This document shows, one piece after another, positions 12,094-54,598 of a stretch of DNA of 64,000 nucleotides (positions within the stretch are counted from its first letter, which is position 1; every line of letters starts with the position of its first letter). A program made the translations under genes and the position numbers. Under the pieces are notes generated by a model. The model was not told the origin of the DNA, searched no databases, and was given only the letters and a program-made list of their open reading frames with translations. This DNA is from Hyphomicrobium sp. ghe19 (GTDB lineage Bacteria > Pseudomonadota > Alphaproteobacteria > Rhizobiales > Hyphomicrobiaceae): contig NZ_LR743509.1 in assembly GCF_902712875.1 (NCBI RefSeq), positions 806,001-870,000 on the forward strand. The letters are read 5' to 3'.

Positions 12094-12825
12094 TTACTTC
12101 TTCGCGGCGGGCTTGGCAGCGGGTGCTGCCTTGGCGGCCGGAGCAGCCTTGCCTGCGGCTGCAGCAGGGGCACCCTTGCCGCCAGCTGCGGGTGCTGCAC
12201 CCTTGGCGTCGGCGGGAGCGCCAGCCTCAGCCGTCGCGGATGCGGCTTCGTCGTCACCCTTGAGCGCGCCCGCGATCGTTGCGATCGTGAAGTCGCGGTT
12301 CTTGATGACCGGCGAAATGCCTTCCGGCAGGTTGACTGCCGAGATGTGGATCGAACGGCCGATTTCCATGCCTTCGAGGTTGATCTCGAAGAAGCGCGGG
12401 ATCTTGTCATAAGGGCAATACACTTCGACATCGTGGCGCACGATGTTGAGCACGCCGCCGCGCTTCAGGCCGGGCGACAGTGTTTCGTTGACGAAGCGCA
12501 TCGGGATCGAAACACGAATGACGCCATCCTTGCCGACGCGCTGGAAGTCGACGTGAAGGGGCGTGTCGCGCACCGGATCGACCTGCACGTCGCGGGCGAG
12601 CACGATGTGCTTCGTACCCTGGACGTCGAGTTCGATGGCGGTCGAGGTGAAGTGGCCGCGGAGGACCTGCTTCCAGAGCTCGTTGTATTCGAGATTGATC
12701 GTCTCAGGGGTTTCCTGATTGCCGTAAATGACGGCAGGCACATTTCCATCGCGGCGAGCTTGGCGTGCGGCCCCCTTGCCGGCACGCGGGCGCGCCGTAG
12801 CCTTGAGCGTGATGAGCTCAGACAT
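12094..12825 (-). CDS. rplY: 50S ribosomal protein L25, long (CTC) form
   Basis: This protein binds 5S rRNA. At 243 residues it is the long TL5/CTC form with an L25 domain (about 1-95, including the VPAVIYGNQETPETINLEYNE region) and a second beta domain (about 96-190). The last 40 residues are low-complexity Ala, Lys and Pro, typical of alphaproteobacterial homologues. I chose the ATG at 12825, which gives the usual N-terminus MSELITLKATARP and has GGAGA upstream. A longer TTG-started frame is not supported. pth follows on the same strand. Confidence 0.95.
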   Translation of the reverse strand: MSELITLKATARPRAGKGAARQARRDGNVPAVIYGNQETPETINLEYNELWKQVLRGHFTSTAIELDVQGTKHIVLARDVQVDPVRDTPLHVDFQRVGKDGVIRVSIPMRFVNETLSPGLKRGGVLNIVRHDVEVYCPYDKIPRFFEINLEGMEIGRSIHISAVNLPEGISPVIKNRDFTIATIAGALKGDDEAASATAEAGAPADAKGAAPAAGGKGAPAAAAGKAAPAAKAAPAAKPAAKK

Positions 12826-13133
12826 GGCATCGTCTCCGAGTGTTAGGGCTCTACTGCCTATCAGAAGAGCCAAATAGCCGCGAACCGGCCTCCAAGGGTG
12901 CCGGGCGGCGTCTCAGGAAGGTCTTCATGAGATGGGGCGTGTATACCCGTGGTTTGGCACCCGCGCAACGGGCCAAAGGTGGGCGATTGAGCCCATACAA
13001 CCGGTTGGCAACGGGTCAGGCGGTCCGTCCGGTGAGCTTCGGGGCGCGCTGGAAAGTTGCCGCGAAAATCAGCATATTAACGGCGAACTTGGCCGGTGGT
13101 CGATTTATTGTCCGATGAAGGCGGGGAACGGAG
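12826..13133. other. Divergent intergenic region between rplY and the Fur-family gene
   Basis: This 308-base stretch holds the back-to-back promoters of rplY (minus) and the regulator gene (plus). I see no convincing coding frame, repeat or stable hairpin in it. Short open frames crossing it have no ribosome binding site and shadow codon use. Confidence 0.5.
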
Positions 13134-13826: not shown

Positions 13827-14357
13827 ATGGACACTATCGAGACCGAGCGACTAGCGCTGAGGAATTTCAGGGAGGGGGATGCAACCGATCTACTCGCATA
13901 TCTGCGCCAACCCCGGGCGAGTTGTTTCTTCTCGCTCAAGCTGGACGACCTCCACGCGGCGGAGGCAGAAGTGGAAGCGCGCAGCAGAAGCGATGAGCAT
14001 ATCGCCGTGTGCTTGCGAAGCACTGATAAGCTGATCGGTGACATGTTCTGCATACCCGAGCCTCCCGATACATATGCCGTCGGGTGGAATTTCAACGCGG
14101 ATTTCGCAGGCGCTGGGTTCGCCACAGAGGCCGCGCGGGCCCTCTTCGAATACCTGTTCTCAGTAAAACAAGCTCGTCGCCTCTACGCCTATGTAGAGGA
14201 AACCAACACTGCTTCGCAGCGCTTGTGCGAAAGGTTGGGAATGAGGAGGGAGGGACTTTTCAAAGAGTTCATATCCTTCGAGAAGGATGACGAAGGCGTC
14301 CCGATCTTCGAAAATACGATGCAGTACGCCATCCTGCGAAAAGAATGGGTGGCGTGA
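13827..14357 (+). CDS. GNAT family N-acetyltransferase (RimJ/RimL type)
   Basis: The protein has 176 residues. The opening TERLALRNFREGDATDLLAYL is the usual start of RimJ/RimL-like acetyltransferases. The acetyl-CoA loop region is GAGFATEAARALFEYLF, and the closing ETNTASQRLCERLGMRREGLF is motif B of the fold. The acceptor could be a ribosomal protein N-terminus or a small molecule; sequence alone does not tell. It stands alone, 270 bases after the Fur-family gene, with no recognisable gene in that gap. Confidence 0.88.
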   Translation: MDTIETERLALRNFREGDATDLLAYLRQPRASCFFSLKLDDLHAAEAEVEARSRSDEHIAVCLRSTDKLIGDMFCIPEPPDTYAVGWNFNADFAGAGFATEAARALFEYLFSVKQARRLYAYVEETNTASQRLCERLGMRREGLFKEFISFEKDDEGVPIFENTMQYAILRKEWVA

Positions 14358-27693: not shown

Positions 27694-28707
27694 ATGTACG
27701 GTAGTGGAGCTAGCGAAACGTCAAGTGTCGGGCTGGCGAGCGTTCGGCTGGATCGCGCTAAGTGGCATAATCCTCTTGTTTCGATCGTTATCACACACTG
27801 CAATTATTCGACCCACCTCCAAGACGCCATACTCTCCATCCTCGATCAAACTCACGAAAATTGGGAATGCGTCGTCGTCGATGACGGATCGGATGCGGAG
27901 CATCGCGACGCCGCGATCAAGATCGTTGCGGAGATAAACGACAGGAGGGTGACGCTCCACGCCCTGGGCGAAAATGTCGGGCAGATCCCCGCTTTTTTCG
28001 CAGGCGTTGACCAGACGACGGGCGATTTCGTGTGTTTGCTTGATCCCGACGACAGGTACGCCAAGACATTTCTGGAAGACGCGCTTGCCGCGCACTTGAG
28101 CGTCGGCGTCATGTGCCCGATCGTTTCAACCGAACAATTCCTGACGAGCGAACGCGGTATACTTGGCAGTGGTTTGAGGGGTGACCTCTTTACGACTGGG
28201 ATGCAGCCCTACGGAAAATATCTCGAATCTTGCAAACCCGAAAAGTCGAGGCTCCTCTTCACTTGGCCGACAACACCGGGTTGGCATTGGACATCCACGT
28301 CAGCGCTGATGTTCCGGCGAGCGGCACTGAAGTTCCTCAAGCCGAATAAGAAGCTTGCCTACAAGAGATGCGCGGACGGCTATCTGGCCCAAGGAGCTCA
28401 TGCATTAGGAGGAACCTTGTTCCTTCAGAAGGCTCTCGTTTACCGGACGCTTCACGCACAAAATTCATGGATCGATGCTGATATTTACGCGTCGGGCCAG
28501 GATATGCAGCGCAAGGGCGCGCCACAGTGGGCAAAGACGGCATTTCAAGATGCGCTCGAAGCGATCAGAGCCAATGGGTTGCCGGAGTTCAGACTCACAC
28601 CAGAGAAAAATCCCGCACCCGGTCCACAGAAAATCGAGGTCCGAAAGCGTGGCATGCGCCGGCATTTAGAACGGTGGAGACAGTCCATCCGCAAACGGGT
28701 TGCCTAG
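27694..28707 (+). CDS. Family 2 glycosyltransferase, tandem copy A
   Basis: The protein has 337 residues of the GT-A fold. The N-terminal PLVSIVITHCNYSTHLQDAI, the nucleotide-binding VVVDDGSD and the metal site LLDPDDRYAKTF are canonical for family 2. There is no membrane helix, so it is a cytosolic or peripheral enzyme, probably adding a sugar to a surface polysaccharide or protein. The ATG at 27694 gives almost the same length as copy B just downstream. Upstream in-frame starts would add residues not shared with copy B. The two proteins align nearly without gaps, so they are duplicates. Confidence 0.9.
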   Translation: MYGSGASETSSVGLASVRLDRAKWHNPLVSIVITHCNYSTHLQDAILSILDQTHENWECVVVDDGSDAEHRDAAIKIVAEINDRRVTLHALGENVGQIPAFFAGVDQTTGDFVCLLDPDDRYAKTFLEDALAAHLSVGVMCPIVSTEQFLTSERGILGSGLRGDLFTTGMQPYGKYLESCKPEKSRLLFTWPTTPGWHWTSTSALMFRRAALKFLKPNKKLAYKRCADGYLAQGAHALGGTLFLQKALVYRTLHAQNSWIDADIYASGQDMQRKGAPQWAKTAFQDALEAIRANGLPEFRLTPEKNPAPGPQKIEVRKRGMRRHLERWRQSIRKRVA

Positions 28708-28807: not shown

Positions 28808-29818
28808 ATGCAAGCCATCGAAATTGATGAAGCGTCGAGTGGGTTGGATCGCGCGAAGTGGGGAAATCCACTGGTTTCGGTCATCATCACGCACCGCAAT
28901 TATTCGGACCATCTCCAAGACGCCATTCTCTCCATCCTCGATCAGACTCACGAAAATTGGGAATGTGTCATCGTCGATGACGGATCGGATGCAGCGCATA
29001 GGGACGCCGCAATCAAGATCGTCACTGAGATAAAAGACAGCCGGGTGACGGTCTGTGCGCTTAGGGAAAATGTGGGGCAAATTCCGGCCTTTTACGCCGG
29101 GTTGGAGAAGACGACCGGCGATTTCGTCTGCGTGCTTGATCCCGACGACAGGTACGCCAAGACGTTCTTGGAAGAGGCGCTCGCTGCTCATTTGAGCGCC
29201 GGCGTCATGTGCCCGCTCGTTTCAACCGATCAATACCTGACCAACGAGCGCGGAATAATTGGGGGCGGTTTGAGAGGTGACCTCTACGCAGCCGGTATGC
29301 AACGTTACGGGAAATATCTCGAAGTTCACAATCCCGAAAAGCCGAAGCTTTTGTACATCCGGGCGGCAACAGCGGGTTGGCACTGGACGTCGACGTCAGC
29401 GATGATGTTCCGGCGGGCTGTCCTGAAGTATCTCAAGCCCAACAAAAGGCTGGCCTATAAGGATTGCGCAGACGGCTACTTGGCCCAAGGAGCCCACGCG
29501 TTAGGTGGAAGCTTGTTCCTCCAGAAAGCGCTCGTTTACCGCAGGCTTCACGCATCGAATGCTTGGATCGATACCAATATCTACTCGTCTTTTCAGTACA
29601 AAAAGCGCAAGGGCGCGCCACATTGGGGCGAGCAAGCGTTCAGAGATGCGATCGAAGCAATCAGACACAACGGACTGCCGGAGTTCAGACGCGCTCCGCC
29701 GAAAGATTCCCCCGCACCGGCTACCGGACCCGCTTCGAAGAAAATTGATGTCCCACGGCGTGGGATGCGACGGCATTTAGAGCGGTGGCACCAGTCAATT
29801 CGCAAGCGGATCGCGTAA
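28808..29818 (+). CDS. Family 2 glycosyltransferase, tandem copy B
   Basis: The 336-residue protein has the same motifs as copy A (VIVDDGSD, VLDPDDRYAKTF, GWHWTSTSAMMFRRA) and the same basic C-terminal end (RRGMRRHLERWHQSIRKR). Most residues are identical to copy A from LDRAKW onward, with changes clustered in the middle (around RYGKYLEVHNPEKPKLLYI) and near the C-terminus. The first 13 residues are unrelated, so the duplication breakpoint lies near the start codons. The gap between the copies is 100 bases. Confidence 0.9.
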   Translation: MQAIEIDEASSGLDRAKWGNPLVSVIITHRNYSDHLQDAILSILDQTHENWECVIVDDGSDAAHRDAAIKIVTEIKDSRVTVCALRENVGQIPAFYAGLEKTTGDFVCVLDPDDRYAKTFLEEALAAHLSAGVMCPLVSTDQYLTNERGIIGGGLRGDLYAAGMQRYGKYLEVHNPEKPKLLYIRAATAGWHWTSTSAMMFRRAVLKYLKPNKRLAYKDCADGYLAQGAHALGGSLFLQKALVYRRLHASNAWIDTNIYSSFQYKKRKGAPHWGEQAFRDAIEAIRHNGLPEFRRAPPKDSPAPATGPASKKIDVPRRGMRRHLERWHQSIRKRIA

Positions 29819-32575: not shown

Positions 32576-33307
32576 CTATTCCGCCGCAACCTGGTTGATT
32601 GCCCCTTCCTTGCGGAAGCGCATCATCGTGAAAATGCCCCAGGGCCGCAGCGCCTTACGGTCTATCAGCTTCAGTTCGGGGCAGACCATCACGCGCGAAA
32701 CGTCGAATACCGAGTGCCAGCCCACGAGATCGGCGAACGGCGCCATCTGGCGCTCGACCCAGCCGCGGACGCCGTCTTCCTGGCTGAAGTGGTTGACGAG
32801 CATGACCTCGCCGCCGGGCTTCGTCACCCGCGACAATTCCTGCATGACCTTCTGCGGATCGGGCACGACGGTGATCACGTACATCGCGACCGTCTTGTCG
32901 AAGGAGTTATCGGGGAAGCGAAGGTTGCTTGCGTCCATCTCGTGAAGGCCCGAGATATTCGTCAGCTTCTCGGCCTTGACGCGCTCGCGTGCCTTATCGA
33001 GCATCTCCGGCGCGAGATCGATGCCAACGATGTCCAAATGCTTTTTGTAATCGGGTAGCGAGAGACCGGTGCCGACGCCGACTTCGAGTACGCGTCCGTC
33101 ACCCGAATTGATGATTTCGACGGCGTGGCGGCGGCCGGCCGTCGAGATCGCGCCGAAGGTATAATCATAAACCGGCGCCCAGCGACGGTATGCGTCGCGG
33201 ACCTGGCCTTCATCGAGCTGCAAAACCTTTGCTTCCGACCGCCTTTTCTGTGCTCCCGCACGCGCTCCTGACGAGGCGTGGAAGCCCGAAGGCTTATTAT
33301 CGCTCAC
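32576..33307 (-). CDS. pmtA: Phosphatidylethanolamine N-methyltransferase, PmtA type
   Basis: The enzyme methylates phosphatidylethanolamine stepwise toward phosphatidylcholine, a major lipid of Hyphomicrobiales. The 243 residues have the SAM motif LEVGVGTGLSLPDY, the substrate-side YRRWAPVYDYTFG and DASNLRFPDNSFD. The ending MMRFRKEG fits the soluble PmtA branch. The GTG at 33307 has GGAGAT eight bases upstream; a TTG eight codons earlier is the alternative. Assignment to PmtA and not to a ubiquinone methyltransferase rests on the overall pattern. Confidence 0.85.
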   Translation of the reverse strand: MSDNKPSGFHASSGARAGAQKRRSEAKVLQLDEGQVRDAYRRWAPVYDYTFGAISTAGRRHAVEIINSGDGRVLEVGVGTGLSLPDYKKHLDIVGIDLAPEMLDKARERVKAEKLTNISGLHEMDASNLRFPDNSFDKTVAMYVITVVPDPQKVMQELSRVTKPGGEVMLVNHFSQEDGVRGWVERQMAPFADLVGWHSVFDVSRVMVCPELKLIDRKALRPWGIFTMMRFRKEGAINQVAAE

Positions 33308-33350
33308 TGCCCGATCTCCATTCGTCCGCAATCGAATTCATGCGATGTGC

Positions 33351-45270: not shown

Positions 45271-45849
45271 TTACGCGGCGAGCACCGCGCGGTCGTGCTT
45301 TCCTTCCTCGATTTCTTCGATGATCTTCGCAACGAAGGCTTCGATATCGCCGGGGTTACGGCTCGTTACGATGCCGTCGTCGGATACCACGGGTTCATCG
45401 ACCCAGTGGGCGCCAGCGTTGATCATATCCGTTTTGATCGAGGTGTAGGATGTCGCCTTGCGGCCCCGCACGGCGTTGGCTTCGATCAACAGCCACGGTG
45501 CGTGGCAGATCGCAGCGACGACCTTGCCGTCGGCGAGGAAGGCCTTGATGAGCTTAATCGCTTCGGGGTTCTGGCGCAGCGTGTCGGGGTTCATCTGCCC
45601 GCCGGGCAGCACGATGGCGTCGTAGAGCGAGGTCGACGCTTCGCCCAGTTCCATGTCGACTTTGACGGGCTTGCCCCAGTCATGATTTTGCCAGCCGATG
45701 ATCGAGTCCTTCTGCTTCCGCTGTTTCGGCGCGGCGACATGCACTAGCTGGGCGACCGCCTTCAACTTTTCGCGCGGAACGTCGAGTTCCGATTGCTCGA
45801 AACCGTCGGTCGCGAGAATGAGAATTTTTGCTTTCGAGATCTTGGGCAT
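45271..45849 (-). CDS. DJ-1/PfpI family protein (type 1 glutamine amidotransferase fold)
   Basis: The protein has 192 residues. The elbow cysteine is in VAAICHAPWLL, the acid is likely Glu19 (GFEQSELDVP), and LPGGQMNPDTLR is the family loop. Relatives are deglycases, general stress proteins (YhbO, YraA) or intracellular proteases. GAGGA seven bases before the ATG at 45849 fixes the start. It lies 100 bases downstream of the GYD-domain gene on the same strand and may be co-transcribed with it. Confidence 0.92.
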   Translation of the reverse strand: MPKISKAKILILATDGFEQSELDVPREKLKAVAQLVHVAAPKQRKQKDSIIGWQNHDWGKPVKVDMELGEASTSLYDAIVLPGGQMNPDTLRQNPEAIKLIKAFLADGKVVAAICHAPWLLIEANAVRGRKATSYTSIKTDMINAGAHWVDEPVVSDDGIVTSRNPGDIEAFVAKIIEEIEEGKHDRAVLAA

Positions 45850-45953
45850 TGGAGGGTCCTCGATTGCCTTGCAACTGAGAAACAACCAATCGAGCTTGTG
45901 GGTAGTTCCGCTCTGCGGCAACGAGCGGCCTCAGGCGCTCTAGCCGATGTCGC

Positions 45954-46247
45954 TCACACCATTTTATTGAGGATTCTGCCCATTTCCTCGAATGAAAAGG
46001 CGCGCAGTGTTTGCGTTCGCACATTGCCGCGGGTGGCGACGCTCAATGCCAACGCTGTGGCCGTCTCATCGTCGGGCGCCTCGCAGATCGCGACGGAGTC
46101 GAAAGTCCCGATCGTCCAATAGATGTCCTTGACCGTGACGCCAGCATTGGTGGCCATGGCTTTGAACTTGTCGCCACGGCTAATCGTGTCTTTGGCGTCG
46201 TGAATGCCTTTGTCCGTGAAGTTGGCAAGAATGATATACGTTGCCAT
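45954..46247 (-). CDS. GYD domain-containing protein
   Basis: The protein has 97 residues of a ferredoxin-like fold. MATYIILANFTDKGI opens it, GVTVKDIYWTIGTFDSVAICEAPDD is the core and LALSVATRGNVRTQTLRAF follows. It is small and cytosolic, and no enzymatic role is known. A good GGAGG site precedes the ATG at 46247. Confidence 0.9.
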   Translation of the reverse strand: MATYIILANFTDKGIHDAKDTISRGDKFKAMATNAGVTVKDIYWTIGTFDSVAICEAPDDETATALALSVATRGNVRTQTLRAFSFEEMGRILNKMV

Positions 46248-46339
46248 GAGAGCCTCCATAGTGGTGGTGCTCCCCGTTGGCGCGGATGTTAGATCGCGCA
46301 ACCGATCAAATGTAGCAAAATCTACCGGTTCCTACCGGC

Positions 46340-46392
46340 TGGTCCTACTGCCCTGGGCGTCCGGTTTTCTTGGGGCGGCCGCGGCGGCTCTT
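46340..46392. repeat. 53-bp direct repeat, left copy (duplicate of uvrB 3' end)
   Basis: This copy differs from 47089-47141 at two of 53 positions. On the minus strand it would encode [15 protein letters not shown] and a stop, exactly the end of UvrB, and both differences are synonymous. It has no coding link to any gene now, since the PhyH stop lies three bases before it. Confidence 0.92.
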
Positions 46393-46395
46393 TAG

Positions 46396-47088
46396 TCAAA
46401 TTCCGGCCCACCTCAACGGAGAGGGCAAATCATTGGCCGCATAATCGACCATCAGCAGCCTCCGGCGGGCTTGGCTGCGAGAGGCATCGGAGGCGTGTAC
46501 GATTGCGGTTGCGCAAATCCAAACGTCACCGGGCTCGGCCAAGCACAAAACCTCCGGGCATTGTGCAATGACCTTTGGTATTGCGTCCGTCGGGATGCGT
46601 CCTTTCCGATGAGATCCAGCAGCGACACGCAACGGGCCGTTGTCGTTACGGCATGGATCAAGGTAGGCACGGAGCGAGATCATACCCTCAATGAAGGAGA
46701 AGGGCGGTTCGACATGGACGGCCCCCGACTTCGTCGTCCAAGGGCCAAAGCCAGGCATATCGATCTTTTCGCGAACGACGACCGTTCGGTCTTGATGCCA
46801 ACCGAGTGCCCAGTTGGTTTGAGCGCTTTTGTCGAAGAAGACGGCGCGTACGGCACGCGCATTGTTTCCTAATCTAGCCGTAGCAAGTCGATCGAACGTT
46901 CGATCGGACGAAAGAAGCTTTCGTACCGTTTCATCACCAACGAGGCGAGAGCCCGGTGCGCCGTTTCGCTGACGTTCTGCAAGCTCCGCAAATTCTTCCA
47001 ATTCAGTGATTGTCAATGCGTGTTCGACTTTTTCGACGCCATCAATTGAAAGCGATAGTGCGTCGGCGCTGCGGTACTGCGCTGTCAT
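46396..47088 (-). CDS. Phytanoyl-CoA dioxygenase (PhyH) family protein
   Basis: The protein has 230 residues of the Fe(II)/2-oxoglutarate oxygenase cupin fold. The iron ligands are WHQD (first His and Asp) and the distal His of TAIVHASD; the 2-oxoglutarate arginine is in SQARRRLLMV. PhyH relatives hydroxylate amino acids, ectoine or lipids, and the substrate here is unknown. Its ATG lies five bases after the uvrB stop with AGGA just upstream, so it is coupled to uvrB. A 53-bp copy of the uvrB end lies directly after its own stop, and its base composition is less GC-rich than uvrB. Acquisition by insertion is inferred. Confidence 0.85.
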   Translation of the reverse strand: MTAQYRSADALSLSIDGVEKVEHALTITELEEFAELAERQRNGAPGSRLVGDETVRKLLSSDRTFDRLATARLGNNARAVRAVFFDKSAQTNWALGWHQDRTVVVREKIDMPGFGPWTTKSGAVHVEPPFSFIEGMISLRAYLDPCRNDNGPLRVAAGSHRKGRIPTDAIPKVIAQCPEVLCLAEPGDVWICATAIVHASDASRSQARRRLLMVDYAANDLPSPLRWAGI

Positions 47089-47141
47089 TGGTCCTACTGC
47101 CCCGGGCGTCCGGTTTTCTTGGGGCGGCCGCGACGGCTCTT
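47089..47141. repeat. 53-bp direct repeat, right copy (native end of uvrB)
   Basis: This copy includes the last 15 codons of uvrB, its stop and five further bases. Beyond those bases the two copies stop matching. The distance between copies is 749 bases, which contain only the PhyH gene. Confidence 0.92.
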
Positions 47142-49940
47142 CTTCTCGGCGCCGCCCTCGTATTCGCGTGTCCGCGTCGGCATCGTTATGCGCGGGGGCT
47201 TTTCGCCGGATTTTACCGGCAGCGATGCGTGCGGCCCCATTTCGTCGAGCGTCGGTTTATGCGGGCCTGCGATTTTCTCGCCGAATGCACCGGCTTTTAC
47301 GCGGCTATCGACGTGCTGCGTGCGAGCCGGGACAGGCCGGTCCGTGCCCGGCCCCATGTCGTCGAGCGAAGGTTTCTTAACGCGAGATGTCGACTGTGCG
47401 TACGTCGGCTGCACGGGTTCGTATTCCGTTTGCACGCGGCTTGCATCGGGTTTGGACGGCGGAACGTTGGCGCTCGGCCCGTACTTTCGCGAACCCTTGA
47501 AGCTGCCGGCCTTGTCTTCGACTTCGGACTGCCGCGCCAGTGGATCGTCGGCGATCGCGAGCTCGGTGTCGCGCAGTCGCTTGACCTCGTCGCGCAGTCT
47601 CGCTGCCGTTTCAAATTCCAGATCGGCCGCTGCTTCTTTCATGCGCCGCTCCATGTCGGCGATGACGGCTTGGAGGTTGTGCCCAAGCACCTGCACGTTC
47701 TCGCCATCGGCGAGGCCGGCATCGACTGTCACGTGATCCTGCTCGTAGACCGACTGCATGACGTCTTGGATGTTGCGCTTGATGCTTTCCGGCGTGATGC
47801 CGTTGGCTTCGTTCCAAGCGATCTGCTTCTCGCGACGCCGGTTCGTTTCGGCCATCGCGCGTTCCATCGACCCGGTGACCTGATCGGCGTAGAGAATGAC
47901 CTTGCCGTCGACGTTGCGCGCGGCGCGGCCGATGGTCTGCACGAGGGACGTTTCCGAGCGCAGGAAGCCTTCCTTGTCGGCATCGAGGATGGCGACCAAA
48001 GCGCATTCCGGAATGTCGAGACCTTCGCGCAGCAGGTTGATGCCGATCAGAACATCATAAGCGCCGAGGCGAAGATCGCGGATGATCTCGATACGCTCCA
48101 GCGTTTCGATATCGGAGTGCATGTAGCGCACGCGAATGCCGTTCTCATGCATGTATTCGGTCAGGTCTTCGGCCATGCGCTTCGTCAGCACGGTGACGAG
48201 CGTGCGATAGCCCTTCTGCGAGACCTGACGCACTTCGTCGAGAAGGTCGTCGACCTGTGATTTGGCGGGGCGTATTTCGACGGGCGGATCGATCAATCCG
48301 GTGGGGCGAATGACCTGCTCGGCGAAGGTGCCGCCGGTCTGCTCGAGTTCCCAACTTGCGGGCGTCGCCGACACGAATACGGATTGCGGCCGCATCGCGT
48401 CCCATTCCTCGAAGCGGAGCGGCCGGTTATCCATGCAGGAGGGCAGGCGGAATCCGTACTCGGCGAGCGTCGCCTTGCGCCGGAAGTCGCCGCGGAACAT
48501 GCCGCCGATTTGCGGTACCGTTACGTGGCTCTCGTCGGCGAAGACGAGGGCGTTGTCGGGCAGGTATTCGAACAGCGTCGGGGGCGGATCGCCGGGATTG
48601 CGGCCCGTCAGATAGCGCGAATAGTTTTCGATGCCGGCGCAGGAGCCGGTCGCTTCCATCATCTCCATGTCGAACGTCGTGCGCTGTTCGAGACGCTGGG
48701 CTTCGAGAAGCTTACCCGAGGCATAAAGCTCTTCGAGGCGCTGCTTCAGCTCCTTCTTGATCGACTTGATCGCCTGCTGCAGTGTCGGCTTCGGTGTCAC
48801 GTAGTGCGAATTTGCGTATAGCTTCACGAGCGCAAGTTCGTCGGTCTTGTTGCCTGTCAGCGGATCGAACTCGACGATGGATTCGATCTCGTCGCCGAAC
48901 ATCGAGAAACGCCAGGCGCGGTCCTCTAAGTGGGCCGGGAAAACTTCGACGGTGTCGCCGCGCGCGCGGAATGTACCGCGGACGAAATTTTGATCGTTGC
49001 GGCGGAAGTGTAGAGCGACGAGATCGGCCAGCAACTGGTCGCGCGAGAGCTGCTCTCCAACGCGAACCGTGAAGGTCATGGCCGTGTAGGTTTCAACCGA
49101 GCCGATACCGTAGATGCACGATACGGACGCGACGATGATGACGTCGTCGCGCTCGAGGAGCGCGCGCGTCGCGGCGTGGCGCATGCGGTCGATCTGTTCG
49201 TTGATCGAGGCTTCTTTCTCGATGTAGGTGTCCGTGCGCGGTACGTAGGCTTCGGGCTGGTAGTAGTCGTAATAGGAAACGAAGTATTCGACAGCGTTTT
49301 CCGGGAAGAAGCTCTTGAACTCACCGTAGAGCTGCGCTGCGAGCGTTTTGTTCGGCGCGAGGATGAGCGCCGGACGCTGCGTCCGCTCAATGACGTGGGC
49401 CATCGTGAATGTTTTGCCGGAACCCGTTACGCCGAGGAGCACCTGGTTCTGGTTGTGTTTGCCGACGCCCTCGACGAGCTCCGCAATGGCTTGCGGCTGA
49501 TCGCCTTTCGGCTGGTAGTCCGAGACGATTTTGAAGGGGACGCCGCCTTCGCTTTTCTCGGGCCGCTCCGGCCGATGAGGAACGAACATCGGCATCCCGC
49601 CCGAGACGATCGGGTGGGTCGCCATCAGCGGCTGCCGTGACAGAAGCTCGTTCGCCCGTTCGGAGCGCTCCTGCGGCTTGGTCAGCAGCGCAGTAAGGCT
49701 ATCGGTCAGGCTTTCGCTGCCCATTGGCGGGCGCGGCCCGGACTGGCGCAGCGCTGGCAGGTTCGGAAGTCCCGTCGCTCCGCGCTTCGGCGAAAAGTCT
49801 GCGGGTGCGAAATAGGAACCCGCTTCTCCAAAGCCCGGCGTTCCGGCCTCCGTCTCCATAGGAGGCTGAGTCGGTTTTCCCGACTTGCCGCGGGAAGGGC
49901 GAGGTGCTTTCGAGCCGGGTGTTTTTGATGGTGCTGACAC
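47094..49940 (-). CDS. uvrB: Excinuclease ABC subunit B with extended termini
   Basis: The damage-verifying helicase of nucleotide excision repair has 948 residues here, against about 670 in Escherichia coli. Walker A GVTGSGKT is at 170-177. The beta-hairpin region [22 protein letters not shown], helicase motifs (QTIGRAARN) and the UVR motif ([27 protein letters not shown]) are intact. The first 130 residues are low-complexity. After the UVR motif the tail has two copies of a KPxLDxMGP module and ends in an AT-hook-like [11 protein letters not shown]. It starts with GTG. Confidence 0.97.
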
Positions 49941-53988: not shown

Positions 53989-54237
53989 TCAGGCCGGCGT
54001 TGCGCCGTGATGAACGAAGCGCTCGGTGAACCAATCCCACGCGTTGGCAATGTGGCCGGTGAGCGGCTTGCCATCGACGGCTGGGACAACCGGACGCCAA
54101 ATCGCGATCGCCGTCGGCGGCTGCGACTTGAATTCAAACACCTGAGGTTCGGCGCCGAAAGCGTCGGGGAGTTGTTCTTCGGCGGCCATGACATATCCGG
54201 CAGCGTTGGCCGCGGACATCAACGTTTCGATACTCAT
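53989..54237 (-). CDS. Small soluble protein, unknown function
   Basis: The protein has 82 residues: METLMSAANAAGYVMAAEEQL, then a beta-rich segment QVFEFKSQPPTAIAIWRPVV and an aromatic end WDWFTERFVHHG. The ATG at 54237 has GAGG seven bases upstream. I see no family. It is convergent with aatA across the shared terminator region. Confidence 0.62.
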   Translation of the reverse strand: MSIETLMSAANAAGYVMAAEEQLPDAFGAEPQVFEFKSQPPTAIAIWRPVVPAVDGKPLTGHIANAWDWFTERFVHHGATPA

Positions 54238-54598
54238 AACCCAGCCTCGCATTTCCTGAGCCAATATCCCTCTGGCTCGTTCCGTATTTCTCGCCAGTGC
54301 CCTATGAACGCGCGAAACGCCGGAAGAGTTCACAATGCGACAAGTTTAAAGTTATTCAAGTTATTTTTGTCTTTCCGGACCCGTGCGGAAGGATATCGCG
54401 AGAAGTAGCTTTGGCAGCGCAGTATAGATCCTCCCGTATTCAGTAATTCTACCGCGTTGCAATAAATTTTTCACGAAACTGTGCGGTGATTCCCGTTGTG
54501 CCTCTTCCGCTTTGGAGCGACCATTCGCGGAGCCGCTCTCTTCCGAGGTGCGGGGCGCGGCTTGCATGGTCGCGCGCCTCGCAACATCGGAGGCAATC
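54238..54598. other. Divergent intergenic region with an AT-rich core
   Basis: In this 361-base gap the part 54330-54375 is conspicuously AT-rich and probably holds the divergent promoters of the 82-residue gene and the EF-G-like gene. No supported gene was found; a minus-strand frame crossing it overlaps the start of the EF-G-like gene and lacks motifs. Confidence 0.45.

Follow-up and report, generated by a model that had tools for sequence, protein, structure and literature searches.

Integrative elements that settle at the 3' ends of genes duplicate the gene end and leave the host gene intact. Insertion with long target duplication, the closest described system, was reported by Nobusato et al. 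2000 for Helicobacter pylori 26695 and J99, in which a gene unit between long direct repeats is polymorphic for presence and absence (PMC1643837, PMC4978471). It is frequently tied to restriction-modification genes there, and the passages that deal with it name no integrase, with PMC4978471 mentioning a possibly site-specific manner. Small variable segments, or microdiversity loci, are portrayed in PMC2884548 as short stretches between conserved genes, with empty loci in relatives and frequent counterparts in other species; direct repeats flank 10-18% of them, and 66-94% of those repeats are shorter than 30 bp. The usual idea for the addition of DNA that is homologous on one side only is homology-facilitated illegitimate recombination, at least as it is introduced in PMC5361080 and PMC3240628. 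A literature search combining single-gene insertion, direct repeats, and empty sites returned no matching paper.

The locus presented here lies in a window of 64,000 nucleotides from Hyphomicrobium sp. ghe19 (genome G000; contig NZ_LR743509.1, positions 806,001 to 870,000), with all of its features on the minus strand in the order uvrB, PhyH, CTA, 53-bp copy, and GYD gene. An earlier sequence-only reading had held that uvrB was left intact by an incoming unit, and the gene (47094..49940) is indeed an uninterrupted ORF of 948 aa with the Pfam domains UvrB_inter, UvrB, Helicase_C, and UVR. Only 5 nt (TAG GACCA ATG) part its stop from a gene for a 230-aa PhyH-family Fe(II)/2-oxoglutarate dioxygenase (46396..47088; PF05721, E=3e-12). 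The proximal repeat copy, c1 (47089..47141, located by repeat search and column alignment), is the true uvrB 3' end together with these 5 nt up to the PhyH start, while the distal copy, c2 (46340..46392), is a duplicated uvrB 3' end made up of the last 48 bp including the stop, plus GACCA, and is preceded by a CTA (46393..46395) that forms the final bases of the unit. Directly behind c2 stands a weakly supported terminator-like hairpin (46324..46339), followed by the GYD-domain gene (45954..46253; PF08734) and, next in the conserved order, a DJ-1/PfpI-family gene (45271..45849; TIGR01382).

The likeness to the H. pylori case is that the unit is absent from five sites in relatives and that a repeat of 53 or 115 bp in carriers corresponds to a single copy, within 1.0-1.5 kb behind uvrB, in all 17 non-carriers with downstream DNA. 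So far as the accounts of that case go, the differences are that the cargo here, in an alphaproteobacterium, is a PhyH oxygenase gene set at the end of another gene in place of the restriction-modification genes, and that two species carry repeats of different length (PMC1643837, PMC4978471). Compared with the mostly short repeats of the small variable segments, those found here, of 53 and 115 bp, derive from a coding gene end (PMC2884548). The departure from integrative elements at gene 3' ends consists in the lack of a detected recombinase gene (PF00589), the unequal distal copies, and the single cargo gene.

The two copies are identical at 51 of 53 positions with a start-to-start spacing of 749, and their mismatches (CGT/CGC at column -40 and CCG/CCA at column -10) are synonymous because both fall at third codon positions, exactly as had been read from the letters. 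Searched genome-wide, the 53-mer is found at these two places only, so it is not a common genomic repeat: with as many as 3 mismatches allowed, the single 4.6-Mb contig of the genome holds no third copy, and a reversed-pattern control gave zero matches. When the last 200 bp of uvrB were compared with the DNA behind the gene, the best local score was 42 in G000 and 85 in G013 (isolate AWTP1-10), the second carrier, as against 8-13 in the 17 non-carrier genus members with 1.0-1.5 kb behind uvrB, which is the level of base shuffles (20 each, maxima 10-15). The uvrB-end repeat is not due to chance. Elsewhere in the window, a 300-nt direct repeat, 82% identical, was noted with its copies 1.1 kb apart (27746-28045 and 28842-29141).

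The distal copy of G000 measures 48+5 bp and that of G013 115 bp, the latter being open in the UvrB frame to the normal stop. The second copy begins 701 nt behind the uvrB stop in G000 and 703 nt in G013, and the ends of the unit agree in the two genomes, with stop-NACCA-ATG at the left end and stop-CTA at the right. The unit does not have the marks of a transposon or insertion sequence: no inverted repeat of at least 16 nt with arms at the unit ends was found, and the duplications of 53 and 115 bp are neither short nor constant. The idea that the second copy keeps a uvrB terminator was dropped, since folds of seven genomes yielded no common hairpin; terminator-like sites in the region number 4, with 2.1 expected. 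No Rfam match was obtained in 45800-47600 and no sigma-70-like promoter in 45900-47400 (0.5 expected), the latter agreeing at most with PhyH being read from the uvrB transcript.

A PhyH match (E <= 0.001) was obtained in 2 of the 22 Hyphomicrobium genomes, four of which are less than 90% complete. The sequence-only reading would have been refuted had all relatives carried the gene with both repeats at equal divergence, and they do not. The two PhyH proteins, of G000 and G013, share 91% identity, and both genes lie directly behind uvrB. Detected in 21 of the 22 genomes, uvrB is followed by available DNA in 19; the contigs of G003 and G008 stop at or inside the gene, and G004 gave no uvrB match at the limit set. 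The empty sites that had been suggested as a check were found in G001, G020, G018, G015, and G016, where uvrB leads straight into the GYD gene. In a tree of 14 concatenated neighbour genes from 15 genomes, the relevant part reads ((G000,(G001,G020)),(G018,(G015,G013))) with bootstrap 100 at these nodes; the presence of PhyH is therefore not clade-wise, and each carrier has closer relatives without the gene.

The search for other cargo behind uvrB, by which the gene might have been recognised as a hot spot, came out negative: none of the 17 non-carriers with downstream DNA has a second uvrB end within 1.0-1.5 kb, and uvrB is therefore not seen taking other cargo. In an order-wide sample, the 37-residue UvrB tail matched 30 of 297 genomes, the non-matching majority being uninformative; among the 30, no adjacent second match was found besides that of G000, while in four the second match is located on a different contig or at a distance of 64 kb. 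Two loci, L031 (G017) and L032 (G010), possess a longer uvrB frame of 1083 and 1012 aa, respectively, with a repeated CCCTCTCCCC-type sequence before the conserved tail, and the first stretch that the window's UvrB matches in them ends at residues 834 and 833. Because of these longer frames with repeated sequence, the UvrB tail region seems to tolerate insertions.

The product of the inserted gene scores 47.6 bits against PF05721, whose gathering cut-off is 22. The residues H98, D100, H198, and R209 of the HxD...H...R set are at least 90% conserved in a 16-row alignment, one row of which (L006, 15% identity) was read on the wrong strand and was also present in the input of the structure job. 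The AlphaFold model has a pLDDT of 90, and Foldseek ranks proline hydroxylase H11, GriE, and MysH as its nearest structures, ahead of EctD, at query-based TM values near 0.6 and 15-19% identity. A comparison of sequences only matched no PDB chain at E 0.001 (best 0.01). Given the Pfam score, the conserved residues, and the predicted fold, the protein is probably an active Fe(II)/2-oxoglutarate oxygenase. It thus resembles the PhyH family in domain, in its HxD...H and R residues, and in predicted fold, and stands apart from it in that no NCBIfam model names it and in its distance from other members; no PHROGs family was matched either.

As for codon bias, the suggested check of which bore out a foreign character, the gene has a GC3 of 0.57 versus 0.733 (sd 0.049) in 52 window genes and shows both the lowest GC3 and the lowest codon-fit score of the 53; the G013 copy is similar (GC3 0.578). 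PhyH looks foreign by codon usage. Other PhyH matches in 103 family genomes (E <= 1e-30) are only 39-51% identical. A pattern-based scan of 84,980 species genomes returned 154 stretches that encode a PhyH relative, 80 of which were kept; G013 stands at 91%, the next by rank at 52%, and the rest of the other 79 at 42-58% identity over the matched stretch, and no donor of the unit was found among these kept loci.

A phage or plasmid source was also considered and set aside, there being no close donor. No phage record was found, and the five plasmid records with PhyH relatives are all below 60% identity; one of them, the Sphingopyxis alaskensis plasmid NC_008036.1 (L149), carries a 45%-identical PhyH near a Ti-type relaxase gene. 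Relatives do occur in phage- or gene-transfer-agent-like head clusters, which may be gene transfer agents; at 39-50% identity, they are not a source of the unit. A capsid, prohead protease, or portal match accompanies the PhyH relative in all 21 viral contigs found (IMG/VR, L150-L170) and in 12 of the 80 genome loci, ten of them named Sphingobium (L036, L040, L049, L055, L065, L066, L069, L071, L074, L089, L098, and L101 being the twelve). Eleven of the twelve have PhyH in antisense orientation between the capsid and protease genes; L089 has no capsid in the available DNA. At L036, L066, L071, L074, L150-L152, and L154-L156, exact direct repeats of 16-39 bp with recurring motifs occur within 600 bp on both sides of PhyH, perhaps representing a dispersed repeat rather than a gene end.

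Between the two carriers, G000 and G013, dS is 0.28 in PhyH (bootstrap CI 0.20-0.39), 0.55 in uvrB (0.48-0.64), and 0.615 as the median of 52 other window genes, which were picked automatically as ORFs of at least 110 aa with dN/dS below 0.45 and no large overlap. The dN/dS filter removed 78 of the 143 ORFs with a G013 match, 73 of which overlapped a kept gene by at least 30%; the 5 removed ORFs without such overlap have dS values of 0.09, 0.65, 0.08, 0.37, and 0.56. With a dN of 0.044, PhyH is not a slow gene, and constraint on its silent sites is unlikely because its codon usage is the least host-like. Four of the 52 genes have a lower dS than PhyH, which counts against a lateral reading; two of these (12094-12873, ribosomal L25, and 53989-54333) evolve slowly in all pairs that were compared, a methyltransferase gene (32576-33331) is near to G015 also (0.23) and not to G018 (0.45), and the fourth, a GNAT gene (13827-14357), is itself patchy. 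Because of the foreign codon usage and a dS lower than that of uvrB and of the gene median, it is most likely that PhyH moved laterally. The divergence of uvrB shows no fall towards the gene end (last bins 0.125 and 0.107), and the shared low-divergence tract therefore starts within the last part of uvrB.

The GNAT acetyltransferase gene, on the plus strand, is an observation in its own right, being found at the same place in G000, G020, and G013 and absent from G001 and G015, with a G000-G013 dS of only 0.19 and the third-lowest codon-fit score of the 53 genes. No flanking direct repeats of at least 14 nt were found.

From the empty sites, the common unit ends, the patchy distribution, the low divergence limited to the unit, and the foreign codons, all of which are observed, we infer lateral transfer, to which a proposed recombination route, a possible circle, and probable co-transcription are added. 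The reading that is favoured here, with somewhat more confidence than doubt, is that a one-gene unit was inserted with a long target duplication and was spread laterally by homologous recombination via the uvrB end that it carries. The unit, of about 0.7 kb (NACCA-ATG-PhyH-stop-CTA), would enter exactly behind the uvrB stop along with a duplicate of the uvrB 3' end, and would have reached the G000 and G013 lineages laterally and probably recently. It brings no integrase, and its spread would most likely be through RecA-type homologous recombination in the travelling uvrB-end copy, either by a single crossover of a circle that consists of PhyH and the uvrB end or by two close crossovers of a linear fragment; neither a circle nor a junction read was observed. 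With the crossover placed inside the duplicated end, uvrB would stay intact. A clean loss of the unit could follow from recombination of one copy with the other, and PhyH, in tandem behind uvrB, probably uses the uvrB transcript. Illegitimate end-joining is a natural candidate for the very first duplication. ComEC-family and Ku genes, present in both G000 and G013, make DNA uptake and end-joining possible and prove neither.

Recombination of this kind may have left a trace in the distal copy of G013, as a crossover inside the uvrB end would give a proximal copy with the host's left and the donor's right part, and a distal copy with the donor's left and the host's right. Relative to c1 of the same genome, the left 67 nt of the G013 distal copy hold 9 differences and the right 48 nt only 1 (Fisher P 0.044, one uncorrected test). 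Two columns, -103 and -68, show a fixed difference between G000/G001/G020 on one side and G018/G015/G013/G016 on the other; at both, the left part carries the state of the first clade (C and A). It also shares the REY reading of G000, against REF in uvrB of G013, and the DNA behind the copy resembles G015. This clade signal is consistent with a crossover inside the uvrB end and is only a hint, because C(-103) is also found in G009, G021, and G012, A(-68) stands next to three additional changes, and at column -94, where G000, G001, and G020 (A, A, and T) are set apart from the other genomes, the G013 distal copy carries the C of the latter. As to a target origin of both copies, the within-genome copies are very alike over 48 columns, and the left part of G013 shows two states of the other clade and one against. 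Since the foreign tract would then have its two borders within one short stretch, a single crossover of a circle would be simpler than two crossovers of a long linear fragment. The simplest account of the 53-bp copy in G000 is the loss of about 69 nt from a copy like that of G013.

Old vertical inheritance, which is held to be unlikely, would require one insertion in the ancestor of six close species, precise repeat-mediated losses in the G001/G020 line, G018, and G015, and gene conversion to keep the repeats alike. It accords with the insertion point and unit ends common to both carriers, with the clean loss that the repeats permit, with a tree that needs just 1 gain and 3 losses, and with the non-G000-clade state of the G013 distal copy at column -94; the C and A states of that copy speak against it, as does a PhyH dS of 0.28, set against a gene median of 0.62, in the gene with the least host-like codon usage. 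The age of the repeats counts against it as well. Over the shared 48 columns, c1 and c2 differ at 2 positions in G000 and 1 in G013, far fewer than the 18.5 expected for an insertion that predates the G000/G013 split (P 2e-6 and 2e-7) and, for G013, fewer than the 7.2 expected since it left G015 (P 0.006), in a calculation that treats the distal copy as neutral and ignores gene conversion. For G000, 6.0 differences are expected since its split from G001/G020 and 2 were observed (P 0.063, not significant), so that its insertion may be as old as that split. By these counts the likeness of the repeats is too great for the insertion to predate the species split, barring homogenisation by gene conversion, which would make c1 and c2 look younger than they are. 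The counts speak for the favoured reading and suggest that PhyH units which had already diverged were inserted recently, twice, at a single place.

Site-specific integration by a tyrosine recombinase acting in trans, with the last ~48 bp of uvrB as attachment core, c1 as attL, and c2 as attR, is regarded as improbable. The same position was used twice with near-identical 48-bp cores and a restored gene end, and the genome has 13 PF00589 matches above cut-off; the genome search nevertheless confirmed that no integrase of this family accompanies the unit, since none of its 15 matches falls in the unit or the window, the nearest lying ~173 kb before and 652 kb behind the latter. The last 48 bp are common to G000 and G013, yet the total copy length differs (53 versus 115 bp), and neither the 17 non-carriers, within 1.0-1.5 kb behind uvrB, nor, besides G000, the 30 matched genomes of the order sample show a further adjacent uvrB end, the other genomes of the 297 being uninformative. 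Of the integrative element that had been proposed from the sequence, the arrival and the empty sites are thus supported and the integrase-type mechanism is not.

About as improbable is it that homology-facilitated illegitimate recombination occurred twice independently, a linear donor pairing by its uvrB part and its other end being joined illegitimately in the recipient's uvrB end, with duplications of differing length. The unequal distal copies, the presence of Ku in both genomes, and the tail-anchored pair counts would agree with this, no other pair being closer over the shared 48 columns than the two copies within one genome (2 differences in G000, tied with G018, and 1 in G013); it would, however, call for a joint at the same unit base (stop-CTA) both times, and the 53-bp copy is simply accounted for by a ~69-nt deletion in a G013-like state. 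The scar of a fully decayed larger element, which had been offered alongside a minimal cassette, is possible and fits less well than a one-gene insertion with long target duplication.

The locus exemplifies, clearly though on a small scale, a type of gene insertion that is already known, in which the integrase-free spread by a carried gene end would be the novel part, as yet unproven. A bolder version, in which a recombinase-free one-gene cassette with a 50-115-bp housekeeping gene end forms a circle by recombination of its copies and re-enters at uvrB elsewhere with uvrB unharmed, is entertained as rather unlikely. The locus itself, occupied in two genomes and empty in five, is well resolved as a case of a single foreign gene placed behind a DNA-repair gene, which is unharmed, without any mobile-element gene. 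Should the circle route be true, duplicated gene ends would by themselves be a mobility device, and some of the numerous small insertions that are peculiar to single strains and lack a recombinase could be accounted for in this way.
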